Virus record (IMG/VR): IMGVR_UViG_3300031167_000010
Span: 1-40,050 of that record
Reading direction: 5' to 3' (one strand)
Length of the DNA: 40,050 bases
From: a virus
Of this stretch, positions 7,929-34,243 are shown piece by piece (the first letter of the stretch is position 1; each line of letters starts with the position of its first letter). The notes under the pieces are model-generated. The model had not been told where the DNA came from. It worked only from the letters and a program-made list of their open reading frames with translations, and ran no database searches. The translations under genes were made by a program, and so were the position numbers.

Positions 7929-10900
7929 CTAATACAATACAACTACAAAATTAGAACCATTTGCAAATTCAAAAACTGCTGATTTTTTTCTTGAATCTGT
8001 TTTTATAGATATTATTTCTGTTGATACATCTCTACCACCGTTTAAAGATAGTAATATTTTACTAGCATCTTTTCCATCTTTTCCATTTTTTCCATTTGAA
8101 CCTGTATTTCCTGTTGCACCTTGACTTCCTGTATTTCCTTTAACACCTTGCGAACCATTAGCACCATTCGTACCTGCATTTCCTTTCGCACCTGTTGAGC
8201 CTGTATCTCCTTTTAACCCTTGAACACCTTGACTTCCTGCGTTTCCTTTTGCTCCATTCGTTCCGTTAATTCCTGCTGAACCGTTTGAACCTGTCGCACC
8301 TGTCGAACCTTTTAATCCTTGAATTCCTTGAATTCCATTAGAACCTTTTGAACCTGTTGCTCCTGCAGAACCGGTTGAACCTTTCGCACCTGTCGTTCCA
8401 TTCGTACCTGCATCTCCTTTTACACCTTGCGAACCATTCGTTCCTGTCGCTCCTTTTGAACCATTCGTACCATTAGTTCCGGTATCTCCTTTTGCTCCGT
8501 TAGAACCGTTTAAACCGGCATTACCTTTAACACCTTGCGAACCATTTGAACCTGCATTTCCTTTTGCTCCGGTTAATCCTGTTGCACCTCTCGAACCATT
8601 TAAACCATCACTTCCTGCGTTTCCTTTAACACCTTGCGAACCTGTATTTCCGGTCGTACCTTTTGTTCCGGTTAATCCATTCGTACCATTAGTTCCTGCA
8701 TTTCCCTTTGAACCTGTTGCTCCGATATTTCCGGTTAATCCCTTATCGCCTTTTGCACCGTTTGTTCCGTTAGAACCTGCATTTCCTGTTGCACCTGTTG
8801 AACCTGTTGCTCCACGAGAACCATTAATTCCATCTGAACCTGTATCTCCTTTGACACCTTGCGAACCTGCATTTCCTGTAACTCCTTTTGCACCGTTTAA
8901 ACCGTTTGTTCCATTTGAACCTGCATTTCCTTTAATTCCTTGAATTCCCTGTGAACCATTAGCACCATTAGTTCCTGCATTTCCTTTCTCGCCTTTTAAA
9001 CCATTAATCCCATCATTTCCGACATCTCCTTTGACACCTTGAATTCCATTTAAACCTGTATTCCCTTTTGCTCCGTTCGTTCCTGCTGAACCTTTTGAAC
9101 CTGTTGCTCCGACACTTCCTGTTAAACCTGTATTTCCTTTAACACCTTGCGAACCATTTGTTCCGGCATTTCCTTTTGTTCCTGTTAATCCAACATCTCC
9201 TTTTAAACCTTTCGCACCTGTTAATCCAATGTTTCCTTGAATTCCATCACTTCCAATATCTCCTTTGACACCTTGACTTCCTGTATTTCCTGTAGCACCT
9301 TTTGAACCATTAGCACCATTAGTTCCTGCGTTTCCTTTTGCACCGTTTGTTCCGTTAGAACCTGCATTTCCTTTTAACCCTTGTGAGCCTGTATTTCCTG
9401 TAGCACCTTGATTTCCAACATCTCCTTTTATTCCGGAAGAACCTGTTGCACCATTTGTTCCATTAACACCTGCTGAACCTTTTGCTCCATCAATTCCTTT
9501 ATCGCCTTTTGCACCGTTTAAACCTGTATCTCCTTTTGAACCTGTTAAACCTTTTGCTCCATCATTTCCTTTTAATCCTTGACTTCCAATATCTCCTTTA
9601 ACACCTTGAATTCCATTCGCACCTGTTAATCCAATGTTTCCTTTTGCACCTTGTATTCCGGTATTTCCTGTCGCACCTGTCGAACCGTTTAAACCATTTG
9701 AACCATCAATTCCGGCATTTCCTTTTGCTCCGGTTAATCCTTTATCTCCTTGAATTCCTTGAATACCTTTTACACCTTGATTTCCAACATCTCCTTTTGC
9801 TCCAACTGAACCTGTATTTCCTTTTGCACCAACATCTCCTTTTACACCAATATTTCCTGTCGCACCAATATTTCCTTTATCTCCTTGAATTCCCTGCGAA
9901 CCGGTTAATCCAATATCTCCTTTTATTCCGGAATCTCCTTTAATTCCTTGTGAGCCGACAGAACCTTTTGCACCTACTGAACCTTCAGAACCAACATCTC
10001 CTTTTATCCCTTGAATACCTGCTGAACCTTTATTTCCTTCATCTCCTTTATTTCCTTCATCTCCTTTTAATCCGTTAGAACCTGTTAAACCAATATCTCC
10101 TTTAATCCCTTGAATTCCTTTTGAACCTTCATCTCCTTTCAATCCTTGTGAACCTGTATTTCCAACATTACCTTTTAATCCTTGAATTCCGGAATCTCCC
10201 TTTGAACCTGTATCTCCTTTTGAACCAATATTTCCTTTTAATCCAATTACACCTTGAATTCCTTGAACTCCAATATCTCCTTTTGAACCTGTTAAACCAA
10301 CATCTCCTTTTGAACCTGTTAATCCAATGTTCCCTTGAATTCCAATATCTCCTTTAATCCCTTGTGAACCGGTAAAACCTTTTGCTCCAATATCTCCTTT
10401 AATCCCTTGTGAGCCTTCAGCACCAATATTTCCTTTTAATCCTTGAATTCCTTGTGAACCTGTTGCTCCAATATCTCCTTTTAAACCTGTATTTCCTGTT
10501 GCACCTTTTTCTCCGGAATCTCCCTTTATTCCTTGAATTCCAATATCTCCTTTCAGTCCTTGAACTCCTTGAATTCCTGTATCTCCTTTTATTCCGGAAT
10601 CTCCTTTTTCTCCAACATTTCCTTGAATTCCTTTTGAACCTGTATCTCCTTTTAAACCTGTTGAACCTGTCGAACCTGTATTTCCTTTGATACCCTGTAT
10701 TCCATTTTCTCCATTTGTTCCATTAGAACCGTTTAAACCGGCATCTCCTTGAACTCCTTGCAATCCTTGAACACCTTGTTCTCCTTTAACACCTTGAATT
10801 CCTTGGTCGCCTTTCTCTCCTTGTTTTCCTTCTGCTCCTTCAGTTTCTCCCAAATATCTATTTAGATATTCATTAAAAATAGTTATGTTTTCATATTTTT

Positions 10901-11180
10901 CTCCATCTTCTTTTACAATAGAAACGAAATTAAAAACTGTTATTTTTGTTTTAGAATCAGATTCATTTATTGGTATAAAATTCCAATCCTGCATTGCTCC
11001 TAATTTTATAAATTCAGTTCCTTTATAACCTATGAATGGAAGATTTGAGAAAAACGAAAAATTCCCATCTGAATCCATTAAGTGCATTGCATTTTTAGAA
11101 CAAATTTTTATAAATATGTTTTGGCTTTTTGAATCTTTTGCAATTAGCCAATTATCTTTAATGTATATTTTTGTCGCCAT
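7929..11180 (-). CDS. collagen-like tail fibre protein
   Basis: A 1083-residue protein in three parts. Residues 1-114 form a globular N-terminal region with no recognised motif, presumably the part that joins the tail. Residues 115-1038 are 308 consecutive Gly-X-Y triplets with no break in register. Residues 1039-1083 are a C-terminal beta-rich cap ending FEFANGSNFVVVLY. Such repeats form a collagen triple helix, giving a thin trimeric fibre. The repeat contains no proline. Its first half is rich in Ile, Gln, Asp and Lys (GIKGD, GIQG) and its second half in Asn, Ser, Thr and Ala (GTNGTNGAKGNAG). It is the last structural gene before the lysis cassette, where receptor-binding fibres usually lie, so adsorption to the host surface is the likely role. 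Repeated DNA makes length variation by recombination likely. Confidence 0.9.
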   Translation of the reverse strand: MATKIYIKDNWLIAKDSKSQNIFIKICSKNAMHLMDSDGNFSFFSNLPFIGYKGTEFIKLGAMQDWNFIPINESDSKTKITVFNFVSIVKEDGEKYENITIFNEYLNRYLGETEGAEGKQGEKGDQGIQGVKGEQGVQGLQGVQGDAGLNGSNGTNGENGIQGIKGNTGSTGSTGLKGDTGSKGIQGNVGEKGDSGIKGDTGIQGVQGLKGDIGIQGIKGDSGEKGATGNTGLKGDIGATGSQGIQGLKGNIGAEGSQGIKGDIGAKGFTGSQGIKGDIGIQGNIGLTGSKGDVGLTGSKGDIGVQGIQGVIGLKGNIGSKGDTGSKGDSGIQGLKGNVGNTGSQGLKGDEGSKGIQGIKGDIGLTGSNGLKGDEGNKGDEGNKGSAGIQGIKGDVGSEGSVGAKGSVGSQGIKGDSGIKGDIGLTGSQGIQGDKGNIGATGNIGVKGDVGAKGNTGSVGAKGDVGNQGVKGIQGIQGDKGLTGAKGNAGIDGSNGLNGSTGATGNTGIQGAKGNIGLTGANGIQGVKGDIGSQGLKGNDGAKGLTGSKGDTGLNGAKGDKGIDGAKGSAGVNGTNGATGSSGIKGDVGNQGATGNTGSQGLKGNAGSNGTNGAKGNAGTNGANGSKGATGNTGSQGVKGDIGSDGIQGNIGLTGAKGLKGDVGLTGTKGNAGTNGSQGVKGNTGLTGSVGATGSKGSAGTNGAKGNTGLNGIQGVKGDVGNDGINGLKGEKGNAGTNGANGSQGIQGIKGNAGSNGTNGLNGAKGVTGNAGSQGVKGDTGSDGINGSRGATGSTGATGNAGSNGTNGAKGDKGLTGNIGATGSKGNAGTNGTNGLTGTKGTTGNTGSQGVKGNAGSDGLNGSRGATGLTGAKGNAGSNGSQGVKGNAGLNGSNGAKGDTGTNGTNGSKGATGTNGSQGVKGDAGTNGTTGAKGSTGSAGATGSKGSNGIQGIQGLKGSTGATGSNGSAGINGTNGAKGNAGSQGVQGLKGDTGSTGAKGNAGTNGANGSQGVKGNTGSQGATGNTGSNGKNGKDGKDASKILLSLNGGRDVSTEIISIKTDSRKKSAVFEFANGSNFVVVLY

Positions 11181-29413: not shown

Positions 29414-29753
29414 CTTTTGGCATTACAATTCTAACTTCAACAGGTTCTCTATCTGATATATGTTCTGTTTGAATTCTTTCCATATAACCTCTATGCTTTC
29501 CTTTAGTTTTTAGATAGAAAATTGTTGCCACGGTATTTCCTTTTCCTATTTGTTTGTAGAGTTGACTTTCTGCAAAGTCTATTGCTATATTTTGTATATC
29601 ATCAACATCTCTAGCAAATTTCTTATCATCTTTTAACCACTTATAAAATTGAGTTCTACCGATACCAACCTTTAAACAAGCAGTCGTTACAACACCAAGA
29701 GATTTCTCTAATGCTTCAATTATAGCTTTTTTATGTTGTTCGGTTTTGTTCAT
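29391..29753 (-). CDS. terS: terminase small subunit
   Basis: A 120-residue protein with an N-terminal helix-turn-helix (ALEKSLGVVTTACLKVGIGRTQFYKWLKDD, about 14-43), which binds the packaging site, followed by a helical oligomerisation part (DFAESQLYKQIGKGNTVATIFYLKTKG) and a charged tail that would contact TerL. This is the usual layout of small terminases. Its start overlaps the FolE-fusion stop in an ATGA, so its translation is likely coupled to that of the modification genes. Confidence 0.85.
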   Translation of the reverse strand: MNKTEQHKKAIIEALEKSLGVVTTACLKVGIGRTQFYKWLKDDKKFARDVDDIQNIAIDFAESQLYKQIGKGNTVATIFYLKTKGKHRGYMERIQTEHISDREPVEVRIVMPKDANRGND

Positions 29754-30580
29754 TTGATTGAGTTTAAAAATTCCATTCTAACTGAAACATCAGTCTTGAA
29801 TACTCCCATTAATTTTGTGGTGGTGGTGTGAGTGTTGTGCTTTTTAACACCACGCATTTCCATACACATGTGCTTTGCCGTTAATTGTACTGCAATCCCT
29901 TTAGGTTCTAATTCTTTCCAAAGGAATTCAGCAACTTGCATTGTAATTCTTTCTTGATTTTGTAACCTTCTTGAAAATGTTTCTAATGTTCTAGCTAATT
30001 TAGATAATCCTACTATTCTTTTATTCGGAATATATGCAATAGTTCCTTCTCCAAAGAATGGTGCAATATGGTGTTCACATAATGAGTGAAAAGGAATATT
30101 TGTTTGGACAATCATTTCGTCATATCCTTCTCCTTCAAATGTTGTGCAATTCCATTTAGGTGGGTTTAAAAATTCTTGAAAAAACTTAATGAATCTTTTA
30201 GGTGTTTCTTTTAATCCTTCCCTGTTTGCATCTTCTCCAAAGTACTGTAAAATTCTACGCACGTTATCTTCAATATTTCCTTCTTCATTTTCCCACGGAA
30301 ATACAAGCCATTCTCCTTTCAATTCAATTCTTTTATCAATTAAGGCAATGAAAGGTTTATCACTAAGTAATGAATATCTATCCATAGTCGCTCCACTATC
30401 AATTAAGTCATCTATAATCACATCAGCTTCTTCAATGGTATCTACTGCGTTCCCTGTCATTCCTGCAACTATTTGTCCCCCTCTAGGAACTCCAAAATAT
30501 TTAGTCGTTTTCGGTAGGTGTTCAGTTGCTTCTTTTAATCTGTGGTAAACCTGTTCCCAATTTATATTCGTTTTTATCAT
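29750..30580 (-). CDS. folE: fusion: phosphoribosyltransferase-like domain + GTP cyclohydrolase I (FolE)
   Basis: 276 residues from the ATG at 30580, which overlaps the queE stop (ATGA). Residues 1 to about 98 look like a short type I phosphoribosyltransferase: VPRGGQIVAG at 31-40 and the PRPP-loop pattern VIIDDLIDSGAT at 54-65. Residues about 102-276 are GTP cyclohydrolase I, complete with the zinc and active-site residues Cys168, His170-His171 (SLCEHH) and Cys239 (KHMCMEMRG). FolE turns GTP into dihydroneopterin triphosphate, the first step towards preQ0. The PRTase part is much shorter than the usual about 150 residues but keeps the key loop. It could recycle purine base to nucleotide or bind nucleotides as a regulator. 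The gene overlaps terS by 4 bases. I know of no standard protein with this fusion. Confidence 0.9.
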   Translation of the reverse strand: MIKTNINWEQVYHRLKEATEHLPKTTKYFGVPRGGQIVAGMTGNAVDTIEEADVIIDDLIDSGATMDRYSLLSDKPFIALIDKRIELKGEWLVFPWENEEGNIEDNVRRILQYFGEDANREGLKETPKRFIKFFQEFLNPPKWNCTTFEGEGYDEMIVQTNIPFHSLCEHHIAPFFGEGTIAYIPNKRIVGLSKLARTLETFSRRLQNQERITMQVAEFLWKELEPKGIAVQLTAKHMCMEMRGVKKHNTHTTTTKLMGVFKTDVSVRMEFLNSIK

Positions 30581-31308
30581 ACCCCTGTTTTTTTGTTCCA
30601 TATTTCAATATGCATTCTAGTTGTGAAATTTAGATAGTTTCTTTTTGCTAAATTTACTACATTTAATTTATTTTCGTTCAATAACTTTTGATTTTCTCCG
30701 GAAGGCATTAAGTAAATTTTCTTCTTATCAATTATTGGTAAATATTTATTTTCTATTTCTTTCCAATCCTTTTTTGAACTTACTACGAATTTAAAAATAG
30801 TGTTTTGTTCATTTAAAGTTTTAATCACGTTCGGTATAAAAGCAACATTATCTTCCATTCCGGAATTAGATAATTTAGGACTACAGTTCCAAAGATTAAT
30901 TGATTCAAGCAATTCTTGTTTGGGCAGGATTGTTCCATTTGTTTCTACTTCAAAAAACACATCACTTTTAATTTCTTTTTTTATGTATTCAATAAATCCA
31001 ATAATGCTAGTTTGTTGCATTAACGGTTCTCCACCTGTAAGAATAACGTGAGCGTCATTTTTAATTGCTTCAATACAATCTTGTGGCAAAATATCTTTAT
31101 ACTCTTTGCTTTGTGCTTTCATCCATACTTCTATACTATCACATCTCCATTCTGCATCATTATGAAGTTCTCCATCAAATTGAGTTCCCATTCCTCCACA
31201 CATTAAATTGCAACCTCCTAGTCTTACAAATACACTTGGAATCCCTATTGTTTTTCCTTCCCCTTGGACTGAATAGAAAACCTCACTTATCGCTAATTTT
31301 TGTTTCAT
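30577..31308 (-). CDS. queE: 7-carboxy-7-deazaguanine synthase QueE
   Basis: 243 residues from the ATG at 31308 (MKQKLAISE), one base after the queD stop. Upstream ATGs would read into queD. QueE is a radical SAM enzyme that makes 7-carboxy-7-deazaguanine from carboxytetrahydropterin. The N-terminus has the FYSVQGEGKTIGIPSVFVRLGG stretch. The cluster cysteines are Cys33, Cys37 and Cys56, a CX3CX18C spacing in place of the usual CX3CX2C: an insert of about 16 residues (GGMGTQFDGELHNDAE) separates the second and third Cys. TGGEP at 91-95 is the SAM-binding motif and VETNGT follows. Length is normal. Confidence 0.92.
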   Translation of the reverse strand: MKQKLAISEVFYSVQGEGKTIGIPSVFVRLGGCNLMCGGMGTQFDGELHNDAEWRCDSIEVWMKAQSKEYKDILPQDCIEAIKNDAHVILTGGEPLMQQTSIIGFIEYIKKEIKSDVFFEVETNGTILPKQELLESINLWNCSPKLSNSGMEDNVAFIPNVIKTLNEQNTIFKFVVSSKKDWKEIENKYLPIIDKKKIYLMPSGENQKLLNENKLNVVNLAKRNYLNFTTRMHIEIWNKKTGV

Positions 31309-31309
31309 A

Positions 31310-31747
31310 TTACTTTTCATAAATTCCCGAATTTTTACTATTTTCAAAACATTCTACCTTTATAACGTGGCATCTTCCACTATCTGTTTTTTTTAGTGTT
31401 TCATTAAATTTGTTAAAAACAAGTTCTGCCAAACTTTCACAACCCATTTTGTCTAGTATTACTAATTTACAAACTTCAGAAGCCGATTGAAAGAAATCTA
31501 AATAAGGGTCGTCTTTTTCTAGCAAAAGAGTGTGGTCAAACATACTGTTCATCCATTCTTTTAAACCGTTATGCTTAAAACCTCCAAAATCAACTATCCA
31601 ATTCATATCATCTAGTTTATCAGCAGAAAACCATACTTTAAAAGATAAAGCATAACCGTGCAAAAGTTGGCAATGACTATGTTTTGCTTTATGTTGTCTT
31701 AATGCAACGGAGTAATTATCGAATACTTTAGTTGAGATATGCTTCAT
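31310..31747 (-). CDS. queD: 6-carboxy-5,6,7,8-tetrahydropterin synthase QueD
   Basis: A 145-residue member of the PTPS/QueD family, which converts dihydroneopterin triphosphate to carboxytetrahydropterin. Active-site residues visible: Cys26 and His30 in HCQLLHGYAL, Asp71-His72 (MFDHTLLL), and Glu132 (VECFEN). The classical HGH zinc motif is HGY here (His30-Gly31-Tyr32), so one zinc ligand must come from elsewhere, perhaps the nearby His-rich RQHKAKHSH. I believe several phage QueD proteins share the HGY form. The start overlaps the queC stop (ATGA at 31747-31744). Confidence 0.9.
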   Translation of the reverse strand: MKHISTKVFDNYSVALRQHKAKHSHCQLLHGYALSFKVWFSADKLDDMNWIVDFGGFKHNGLKEWMNSMFDHTLLLEKDDPYLDFFQSASEVCKLVILDKMGCESLAELVFNKFNETLKKTDSGRCHVIKVECFENSKNSGIYEK

Positions 31748-32931
31748 TTTAAGTAAATTGTTTCATCTGTTATTCCTGCTCTTTTAAATGCTTTTTTTCT
31801 CATATAACAAGGAGAACACTCTCCACAATGATGTTCATTAGCATTATAGCAAGACCAACTTAATTCTATTGGACTATTCCATTTTTTACCAAACTCCACG
31901 ATTTCTTTTTTCATTAAACCACCTAATGGAGTTTTCACTTCTAGTTTATAGCCGTTATTTACTGCTCCATAAAGAAGATTATTAAAATCAATTATAAATT
32001 GTTCTTCGTTGTCCGGATATGCTCCGGATTCTTCTAAATTACTACCTAGATATATATATCCGTATTGATTTGCTTCTGCATATCCTGTAGCTATTGATAG
32101 CATTATTAAATTACGAGCATAAACCCAATCTAAAGCATATTCAACCCCTTCTTTTCCGGATTTAATTTCTTCATCCTTAAATAGTGTTGAGTTACCTTTA
32201 AACTTAGTATAATCTAAATCTAGTATGTCGTATTTTAACTTTTCTTTTTTTGCTATTGATTTTATAGCATCAATTTCCTTTTCAGTAGCCTTACAACCAT
32301 AATTAAAATGGAGCAATAATATACTATCGTGATTTTCTTTAGCATATCCAATTAAGGAAGTACTATCTAATCCACCGGAACAAACAACCAATGCTCTATT
32401 CGGTTGAAATCTTTGAATTAAGCGACTTTCTTTTGTTTTCAATGATAATATACTATAAGGCTTCATTCTTACAGCATTCTCCCCTAAATGGTGCTTTAAA
32501 GAGGAGAAATAGACCTGTCCGTTCTCTTCTAATGTAAAAATCGGTTTATAATTACACGCTAATATAATATCATCTTTTGTAGCTATTGCTATTGCGTAAG
32601 AACCTTTTACTTTTTCTAGTGATTTTTTTAGAGTGTCAAGGTTTGTTATATCAAGAACTTTTGTTAAAATATAACTATCAATTTCATTTGAATCATTTCC
32701 TAGTTCTAAGTCGTTTGAAATTGTCCCATTATGAACTAATTTAAAATCCCTTCCAAATGGTTGATTTCTTTCAACAGAAGATAATTCGTTTGTAGGTGTT
32801 GCTCTGTGGTTTGCAATCCATATATCTCCAATTTGACATAATCCGGAAAAATCTCTTCCTCTATCTTTTGCTTTCTGATATATAGATAATGCTTTTTCGT
32901 CAAAGTTTGTACCTCCTAATATTGAACACAT
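31744..32931 (-). CDS. queC: Gat-QueC fusion: glutamine amidotransferase + 7-cyano-7-deazaguanine synthase
   Basis: A 395-residue two-domain protein. Residues 1 to about 175 form a class II (Ntn) glutamine amidotransferase: Met1 precedes the nucleophile Cys2 (MCSILGG), with HRATPTNE at 42-49 and HNGTISND at 67-74. Residues about 178-395 are QueC: PP-loop SGGLDST at 185-191, then the zinc site Cys361, Cys369, Cys372 and Cys375 (CGECSPC). QueC makes preQ0 from CDG with ATP and ammonia. In Gat-QueC proteins of crenarchaea, and in phage 9g, the fused amidotransferase is linked to converting preQ0 to archaeosine, so dG+ in DNA is the expected product. It lies in the modification operon between dpdA (5-base gap) and queD (overlap). 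Confidence 0.95.
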   Translation of the reverse strand: MCSILGGTNFDEKALSIYQKAKDRGRDFSGLCQIGDIWIANHRATPTNELSSVERNQPFGRDFKLVHNGTISNDLELGNDSNEIDSYILTKVLDITNLDTLKKSLEKVKGSYAIAIATKDDIILACNYKPIFTLEENGQVYFSSLKHHLGENAVRMKPYSILSLKTKESRLIQRFQPNRALVVCSGGLDSTSLIGYAKENHDSILLLHFNYGCKATEKEIDAIKSIAKKEKLKYDILDLDYTKFKGNSTLFKDEEIKSGKEGVEYALDWVYARNLIMLSIATGYAEANQYGYIYLGSNLEESGAYPDNEEQFIIDFNNLLYGAVNNGYKLEVKTPLGGLMKKEIVEFGKKWNSPIELSWSCYNANEHHCGECSPCYMRKKAFKRAGITDETIYLK

Positions 32932-32936
32932 AATTT

Positions 32937-33680
32937 TTATATTATAATTTTATTTTCCATTGATTTACTAAACTTTACCCACTCCCCAAAATTATGATGT
33001 CCTAGTTGAAGTTGATTTTTTATTCTCCCCTTTTTTTTGGTGTCAAGTGTTTTAATTTCTTTTCCGTTGAACCATACTAAAGTCTTATATCTATTTCCTG
33101 CTAACCAACTGCTTGAATCAACTGAATAAAATGGTACTTTTTTTAGTGTTTTCATTCCTGTAATTCCAAGACCGTGAACTTTACAGTTTTGATTCCTTGC
33201 GTCCATTACAAATTTATAAAATGTTTCAGTATCTCCCCAAGCAACATCTTTCCCTGCAATTCCGAGTGAAACATAATCATAATCTTTTATCATTCCATTC
33301 CAATCATCTAACCCTCTTTTCATATGAAAAACAGGTATTGACTGCTTTCCTGTTTTACTTTCAATTTTTCTTCTTAATTGTTTAACCTTTTCATATCCGA
33401 ATATTGAATCAACGTCCATTTCAAAAAACAGGTCAATCTTATTGTTATTTATATATTCAATATATTCGTCTGTAAATTTATCAATGTCAACTTTCTTTTT
33501 TGTTTTTGCCATCATAAAAGTGAAAGCACCACTATCTAAAAGAAATCTATCATATCTTGGAATTGTTTGTTCTCTTATTAAATGTTTTTTAGCATAGAAG
33601 AATGAATCCAATTTGTTAAATTTATAGTCAACTTTTTCAAATATTTCTTCGTATGATTCTCCTGCTAAATATACTTTCAT
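32937..33680 (-). CDS. dpdA: DpdA-like DNA guanine transglycosylase (phage type)
   Basis: A 247-residue protein of the tRNA-guanine transglycosylase superfamily, phage DpdA type, which swaps guanine in DNA for a 7-deazaguanine base. RFLLDSGAFTFM at 46-56 matches the TGT active site (TDSGGFQ) with Asp49. LFFEMDVDSIFG follows at 85-95, IPVFHM at 115-120, VSLGIAGK at 137-144, HGLGITG at 169-175 and the family stretch SVDSSSWLAGN at 186-196 with Asp188, a candidate nucleophile. The TGT zinc site (CxCxxC) is absent and the protein is much shorter than tRNA TGTs, as expected for DpdA. It overlaps the ParB-like gene by 4 bases and is followed by all preQ0 genes. Confidence 0.9.
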   Translation of the reverse strand: MKVYLAGESYEEIFEKVDYKFNKLDSFFYAKKHLIREQTIPRYDRFLLDSGAFTFMMAKTKKKVDIDKFTDEYIEYINNNKIDLFFEMDVDSIFGYEKVKQLRRKIESKTGKQSIPVFHMKRGLDDWNGMIKDYDYVSLGIAGKDVAWGDTETFYKFVMDARNQNCKVHGLGITGMKTLKKVPFYSVDSSSWLAGNRYKTLVWFNGKEIKTLDTKKKGRIKNQLQLGHHNFGEWVKFSKSMENKIII

Positions 33681-34243
33681 AATTCAAGTGCTTTCCAAAT
33701 AATATCTTCTCTACTACCATCTAATGAATTTAGTTTTGAATTTATGATTTCAAAATCATCTGAAGAATACTCCAAAACTATTTTATTTTTTGATTCTTTT
33801 TCTATAATATCATCCTCAAAAAATTCTCCCAAATCTACTTCACTTGTGCTAAATGTTTCTAATCCCCATTCATCTAATTCTTCTTGCTCCCATTCATTTC
33901 CTAAAATATCATAATCCCATTGACCGAAACCAACATTATCCTTAATTAAAAATTGTTTTGTTTGTTCTAAACTTAGGTCTTTAACAACGATTACAGGTAT
34001 TTTTTTTAACCCTGCAGATTGACACGCTCGGTATCTCATATTTCCCCCTAAAATGACACCGTTTTCGTTTACAACGATTGGTCTAATGCTTAACATTTGA
34101 GGAAATTCTTTTACTGACTTTACTAATTTATTAAATTTTTCATCTTTTATGAATCTAGGATTTTGTGGCAAACCTTTGATTTGACCTGTATTCAATGAAA
34201 TATCATTAATATCTAATATTTCTATTTTTGGATTTTTGTCCAT
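33677..34243 (-). CDS. ParB/Srx-like N-terminal domain protein, probable DNA-modification partner
   Basis: A 188-residue protein with a ParB/sulfiredoxin-type domain: SIRPIVVNENGVILGGNMRYRACQ at about 52-75 with GGNMRYRA (66-73) as the nucleotide-binding motif, followed by KKIPVIVV and LSLEQTKQFLIKDNVGFGQWD. This domain, with the same FGQWDYDILGNEWE continuation, is common next to phage DNA methyltransferases, where it appears to act with the modifying enzyme. Here no methyltransferase follows; dpdA does, with a 4-base overlap. It is the first gene after promoter P7. A role in helping DpdA choose or reach its DNA sites is inferred. Confidence 0.75.
   Translation of the reverse strand: MDKNPKIEILDINDISLNTGQIKGLPQNPRFIKDEKFNKLVKSVKEFPQMLSIRPIVVNENGVILGGNMRYRACQSAGLKKIPVIVVKDLSLEQTKQFLIKDNVGFGQWDYDILGNEWEQEELDEWGLETFSTSEVDLGEFFEDDIIEKESKNKIVLEYSSDDFEIINSKLNSLDGSREDIIWKALEL

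Follow-up and report, generated by a model that had tools for sequence, protein, structure and literature searches.

Several described proteins resemble one part or another of a gene that we report here from an uncultured virus, in which a phosphoribosyltransferase (PRTase)-type domain is fused to GTP cyclohydrolase I (FolE). The gene lies on the minus strand at 29750-30580 of IMG/VR record IMGVR_UViG_3300031167_000010, from which a stretch of 40,050 bases was analysed (the window). The xanthine-guanine PRTase (XGPRT, or Gpt) of Escherichia coli and Yersinia resembles the N-terminal domain in its fold, the RGG of loop I, the DD..D.G.T motif, the hood lysine and tryptophan, and the PW(D/E) ending, but the viral domain is about 27 residues shorter, is fused to FolE and falls far under the NCBIfam cut-off, and its PRTase activity is only predicted. 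The purine PRTase of Pyrococcus horikoshii (1vdm) has the same WIVFPWE ending and a similar fold (Z 11.0, 31% identity), but it is a full-length, standalone protein that has the loop missing from the viral domain. TubE of tubercidin biosynthesis is also a purine-type PRTase, from a pathway that begins with GTP cyclohydrolase I; unlike the viral domain it is a standalone protein of 194 amino acids and has been shown to use 7-carboxy-7-deazaguanine (CDG) (PMC6112128), and we liken the two by description, not by sequence. Among phages, the PRTase family PHROG 8995 (phosphoribosyl transferase), with members in Campylobacter and Cellulophaga phages, is matched by 61 of the 76 domain sequences, and a FolE is likewise encoded by the Campylobacter phage. 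These members are standalone, however, and the one in Cellulophaga phage phiST retains loop II whereas the Campylobacter one has it partly shortened. The other half of the fusion resembles the FolE of phage preQ0/DpdA clusters, being complete, with invariant zinc ligands and the same gene neighborhood. We found no description of a PRTase-FolE fusion in the open-access literature that we searched, and the main survey of these phages (PMC6884629) makes no mention of phosphoribosyl or PRTase. The fusion is real, conserved and widespread, and it appears to be undescribed in that literature.

Translation of the minus strand gives 276 codons in one frame, from 30580 down to 29753, with a stop codon at 29752-29750. 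A frame error or assembly artefact is ruled out, because the identical two-domain frame is found in about 140 virus loci overall (some contigs are counted twice) and in isolate genomes. The original prediction, made from the letters of the window, had the coordinates right (it gave no strand) and had named a frame error at the domain boundary as a result that would overturn it; its motifs are also where it put them, with VPRGG at residues 31-35, IDDLIDSGAT at residues 56-65, and C168, H170/H171 and C239 in the FolE part. The ATG at 30580 shares an ATGA overlap with the stop codon of queE, and the next gene after the fusion, encoding the small terminase, likewise begins in an ATGA overlap, so the gene is part of a tightly packed operon. 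There is an alternative in-frame ATG at 30601 that would add seven residues (MEQKNRG) for a protein of 283 amino acids. In some relatives the equivalent position (MEQ.NRS) is the only possible start, and the true start of the fusion is therefore either 30580 or 30601.

The N-terminal domain (residues 1-97; 30290-30580, minus strand) is easily missed. Searches with its 97 residues as a single sequence gave only weak matches (Pfam, 0.21; PHROG, 0.0037; NCBIfam, 0.0099; 1vdm, 0.0027), which explains why annotators overlook it. When family profiles were used as queries, XGPRTs were the top matches (E = 8.8e-8 with profile A2 and 2.3e-7 with profile A3). An AlphaFold2 model made from an input of 76 sequences has a pLDDT confidence score of 97.7, and 6-oxopurine PRTases rank first for it in Foldseek and VIA-align comparisons. 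E. coli and Yersinia XGPRT align with 95-97 of the 97 residues of the model (Z 11.1-11.7, 2.1-2.3 Å), and the match extends across XGPRT residues 2-140, so that the model has the type I PRTase fold with a hood of the XGPRT type. A chance motif as the source of the match is ruled out by the family profiles and the predicted fold. As judged from profiles and the modeled fold, the N-terminus is, as the original prediction had suggested in calling it PRTase-like, a genuine domain of the PRTase type; it derives from XGPRT, and the nearest of its relatives with solved structures are XGPRTs that use guanine. The original prediction would have failed had the predicted structure shown no similarity to PRTases, and the similarity found runs the whole length of the domain. 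The domain is nevertheless set apart from XGPRT proper, because it lacks flexible loop II and because it misses the curated cut-offs for XGPRT and PRTases (NF006613, 15.4 versus 138 bits; PF00156, 11.3 versus 26.3 bits).

In a profile alignment there is a 27-residue gap between the PRGG of loop I and the PRPP (5-phosphoribosyl 1-pyrophosphate) loop, opposite the XGPRT residues that form one strand and flexible loop II; in the viral protein it falls at about residues 43-46 (30443-30454, minus strand). The spacing from PRGG to DD is 20-33 residues in fused members, with a mode of 21, as compared to 48 in E. coli XGPRT (PDB chains in the profile alignment give the same gap), and the AlphaFold2 model has no loop II hairpin. 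The domain is short because of this absence of about 27 residues. What is left of the guanine/GMP site is almost invariant. Counted over 95 non-redundant fused sequences, the RGG of loop I (PRGG, residues 32-35, 30476-30487, minus strand, 98-100% conserved; aligned to S36-G39 of E. coli XGPRT) is 99-100% conserved, and D57, D58, D61, G63 and T65 of the PRPP loop, or loop III (DDLIDSGAT, residues 57-65, 30386-30412, minus strand; equivalent to XGPRT D88, D89, D92, G94 and T96) are each 100% conserved. In the base-recognition hood (30290-30334, minus strand), K83 is conserved at 91%, W91 at 100%, and E97, the end of FPWE, at 99%; the profile alignment places K83 on XGPRT K115, and W91 and E97 correspond to W134 and D140. 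The loop I and PRPP-loop residues, the lysine for O6 and the aromatic residue for the base that are expected of an XGPRT are thus all conserved. By analogy with XGPRT, we take D61 to be the general base and W91 to stack on the purine. In crystal structures of HPRT, loop III binds the ribose and 5'-phosphate, and a lysine binds O6 of guanine (PMC6783271). The domain is clearly under purifying selection, with dN/dS (nonsynonymous to synonymous substitution) of about 0.30 compared to about 0.12 for FolE, many sequence pairs being near synonymous saturation. Recent decay in this phage alone is ruled out, because the loop is absent yet the site is retained in all fused members. The original prediction had supposed that the domain was shorter than usual and might have lost catalysis: this suspicion is sharpened, in that loop II and its neighboring strand are what is absent, whereas the residues that bind nucleotide and base, the general-base aspartate among them, are conserved.

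The C-terminal part (residues 103-276; 29753-30274, minus strand) is FolE. PF01227 matches residues 103-275 with E = 7.1e-64 (215 bits, cut-off 27), TIGR00063 scores 198.8 bits (cut-off 181.6), and structural alignment of the model to the FolE proteins of human, Thermus and Mycobacterium gives Z of about 22. C168, E169, H170, H171 and C239 are invariant in an alignment of 34 relatives, and the zinc ligands are C168, H171 and C239. By these sequence measures it is a complete FolE, as had been claimed, with profile scores above the curated cut-offs and metal ligands unchanged in 34 sequences. In one fused protein from another locus (L128:5944-7692), FolE is split at the catalytic Cys-Glu-His-His by some 280 residues of Hint/intein-like sequence.

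The fusion is present in all of the best 80 full-length relatives in IMG/VR. A profile of the N-terminal domain alone found 80 loci. The fusion is present in 79 of them, the exception (locus L134) having the PRTase and FolE parts as overlapping neighboring genes. Among phage records that match FolE, 33 of 388 have the fusion and most have a FolE without the N-terminal domain. The fused records, which come from phages of Vibrio, Pseudomonas, Xanthomonas, Variovorax, Stenotrophomonas and Sphingomonas, are labeled only as GTP cyclohydrolase where they are annotated. Two further high-coverage matches among phage records were rejected as chance joins with an unfused FolE. The original prediction had called for a survey of whether extended FolE homologs co-occur with dpdA, and they do: DpdA is present in 53 of the 53 fused loci with sufficient flank (at least 4.5 kb upstream and at least 3 kb downstream; there is slight double counting), and in the fused loci without DpdA the contig ends close to the gene.

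The reverse association does not hold. The unfused-FolE phages Vid5, R7M, HD01, 83AMN and R5C carry DpdA. No PRTase was found elsewhere in six unfused-FolE phages (these five among them), in searches whose sensitivity is limited, the PHROG profile having missed the known fusion in MMDA13 and the second scan having had no positive control. Since there are DpdA phages without any detectable PRTase, the domain must be an accessory to DpdA modification. In a FolE tree the fused proteins do not form a group: well-supported branches of the unrooted tree force at least four changes, and the unfused FolEs of R7M/HD01 and of Vid5/83AMN nest inside fused groups. A single origin of the fusion followed by vertical descent is contradicted by this scatter. 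Loss or replacement of the domain is likely, gain and loss being inseparable on a rootless tree.

A PRTase gene also accompanies folE without being fused to it. In Flavobacterium phage immuto_2-6A, an unfused folE is preceded, at a distance of 70 bases, by the gene for a standalone PRTase without the loop, and the phage also has queD, queE, an annotated dpdA and queF. In Brevundimonas phage MaInes a full-length XGPRT gene directly follows folE and is itself followed by genes for a deoxynucleoside monophosphate (dNMP) kinase and ribonucleotide reductase (RNR), with queC, queD and queE sited elsewhere in the genome (region L170:4863-18297). No DpdA was found in MaInes with phrog_887, phrog_7068, PF01702, phrog_19058 or a custom hidden Markov model, but the first three also missed the annotated DpdA of immuto_2-6A, so a diverged DpdA could escape. 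MaInes is a candidate for synthesis of 7-deazaguanine DNA at the nucleotide level. Campylobacter phage F379 (Firehammervirus) has a PRTase of 137 amino acids with a shortened loop region, as well as a FolE, and the DpdA model phrog_887 found nothing in it. In picocyanobacteria, a standalone loop-less PRTase gene lies beside a nucleoside 2-deoxyribosyltransferase-like gene in 18 of the 41 genomes sampled (cellular occurrences of the domain overall are a lower bound); examples are L155, L156, L158, L159 and L160. It is possible that the XGPRT-like and deoxyribosyltransferase-like genes are a nucleobase salvage pair. The related ARRANGEMENTS of immuto_2-6A, MaInes and F379 thus place the PRTase-FolE pairing in several independent layouts, and the standalone loop-less versions, those of the picocyanobacteria among them, extend the loop-less form beyond the fusion.

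The explanation that fits best, which we favor tentatively and at somewhat less than even chances, is that the fused domain salvages guanine. FolE, through which GTP is committed to preQ0, carries a minimal 6-oxopurine PRTase domain at its N-terminus; this domain would capture the guanine that is freed when DpdA swaps guanine for preQ0 and join it to PRPP to make GMP, which host kinases could then return to GTP. The role of the fusion would be to set the capacity for recapture at 1:1 with the drain on GTP, rather than to channel substrate. Compared with a housekeeping XGPRT, the domain without loop II would probably work more slowly or less tightly, or it might borrow a lid from FolE or from a neighboring subunit of the FolE oligomer. 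The stoichiometry of such a salvage is one guanine out per GTP spent. Replacement of 25-27% has been reported for phage 9g (cited in PMC8265664). At that level, we calculate that about 3,000 guanines would be freed per 40 kb genome of this composition, and that the release would come to about 0.5 mM for 100 progeny in 1 fL (an assumed burst size and volume). The computed support consists of the XGPRT fold over 97 residues, the profile match, the near-invariant site, purifying selection and the presence of DpdA in every fully flanked fused locus, and we count in its favor the adjacent-gene layouts of immuto_2-6A (with dpdA), L134, and MaInes with its full-length XGPRT beside folE.

The recycling loop put forward in the original prediction is partly supported, but several points weigh against guanine salvage. 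The missing loop II is its weak point. Hosts usually own a guanine PRTase. The fusion cannot channel its product directly, because GMP needs two kinases before FolE can use it. Recycling must be non-essential, because Vid5, R7M, HD01, 83AMN and R5C have DpdA but no PRTase was detected in them. It leaves unexplained MaInes and F379, in which a PRTase accompanies genes of the preQ0 pathway and DpdA was not detected, and direct fusion to the committed enzyme fits control better than salvage. A broader proposal, which we think unlikely to be right in full, is that a working loop-less guanine PRTase on FolE closes a stoichiometric guanine cycle, and that the same PRTase gene was recruited beside folE more than once, making a modified nucleotide in the phages that apparently lack DpdA.

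Control is the essence of a rival explanation that we consider rather doubtful, in which the loop-less domain is a regulatory sensor: it would bind GMP, ppGpp or PRPP without turnover and tune FolE to the GTP supply, as GFRP acts on animal GTP cyclohydrolase. The pattern of conservation cuts both ways here, because the binding residues are kept and the catalytic lid is lost, but the general-base aspartate, which would be superfluous for pure sensing, is also 100% conserved in the fused set. HPRT holds ppGpp in exactly this site, and with a partial deletion of loop II it binds pppGpp like the wild type, but complete deletion of loop II abolishes strong binding (PMC6783271). The fold matches include 5vog, an XGPRT-like structure with bound ppGpp. 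The existence of standalone loop-less versions, and of a full-length XGPRT adjoining folE in MaInes, argues against a sensor.

Alternatively, and improbably in our estimation, the domain could be a 7-deazaguanine PRTase that joins PRPP to a pathway base (CDG, preQ0 or a derivative); the nucleotide so formed could be converted to a modified deoxynucleoside triphosphate for the phage polymerase. There is a precedent in TubE, which is clustered with GTP cyclohydrolase I and joins PRPP to CDG (PMC6112128), and Campylobacter phages have been proposed to use a route through modified dGTP (PMC6884629). The PRTase and FolE of the Firehammervirus phage, with no phrog_887 match, count in favor of this reading, as does the gene set of MaInes (folE, full-length XGPRT, dNMP kinase, RNR and queCDE, with DpdA not found). 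The fused loci, however, all have DpdA where the flank suffices, and DpdA needs the free base for which the domain would compete; the fusion has no RNR or dNMP kinase gene next to it in the window; and a substituent at C7 would be expected to clash with the conserved general-base aspartate. Least probable is a structural or vestigial domain that serves FolE folding, oligomer assembly or the binding of a partner such as DpdA and has no ligand function, because repeated absence of the domain among related phage FolEs, the missing loop II and faster evolution than FolE would suit it but the invariant residues are those of the ligand site rather than of the surface or core generally, dN/dS is well below 1, and split gene pairs persist (L134, immuto_2-6A).

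Whether guanine salvage or one of these alternatives is correct, the analysis gives a name to a conserved part of a DNA-modification enzyme for which sequence records, Pfam and NCBIfam have no label. It makes testable both the fate of guanine once DpdA has evicted it and the ability of a type I PRTase to function when flexible loop II is missing. For phages in which preQ0 genes occur and DpdA was not detected (MaInes and the Campylobacter phages), it also suggests which enzyme might serve the unexplained route at the nucleotide level. Culturable phages with the fusion exist: Pseudomonas phages NP1 and PaMx25, and Vibrio phage VpKK5.

In the window, the genes of the preQ0/DpdA modification cluster are all found at 29750-33680. 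Upstream of the fusion, all on the minus strand, are queE (7-carboxy-7-deazaguanine synthase; 30577-31347; phrog_2076, E = 1.1e-56), queD (31310-31747; PTPS, E = 4.6e-15, and phrog_2389), Gat-QueC, with a glutamine amidotransferase domain and QueC (31744-32931; PF06508, E = 6.3e-56, and GATase_7), and a dpdA-like transglycosylase gene encoding 247 amino acids (32937-33680; phrog_887, E = 2.2e-50). Directly upstream of dpdA, and overlapping its start, is a gene for a ParB-domain protein (33677-34243, minus strand; PF02195, E = 1.1e-9), and in 85 of 104 loci dpdA has a ParB-like gene no more than 400 bases away. Bacterial dpd clusters also hold a ParB-like protein (DpdB), and the ParB-dpdA pair may be the phage counterpart of that arrangement.

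Two contigs outside the virus records deserve mention. One, which was binned with a Thermoplasmata archaeon (L149:6306-10279), is probably viral; it carries queC, queD, queE, the PRTase-FolE fusion, dpdA and genes for replication. The other, from a metagenome-assembled genome (L148:7989-8885), has the beginning of the PRTase domain running into a protein of no relation to it, most likely as an assembly chimera. Elsewhere in the window, the minus strand at 7929-11180 encodes a collagen-like protein of 1083 amino acids with about 308 Gly-X-Y triplets in a run, which is probably a tail fiber.
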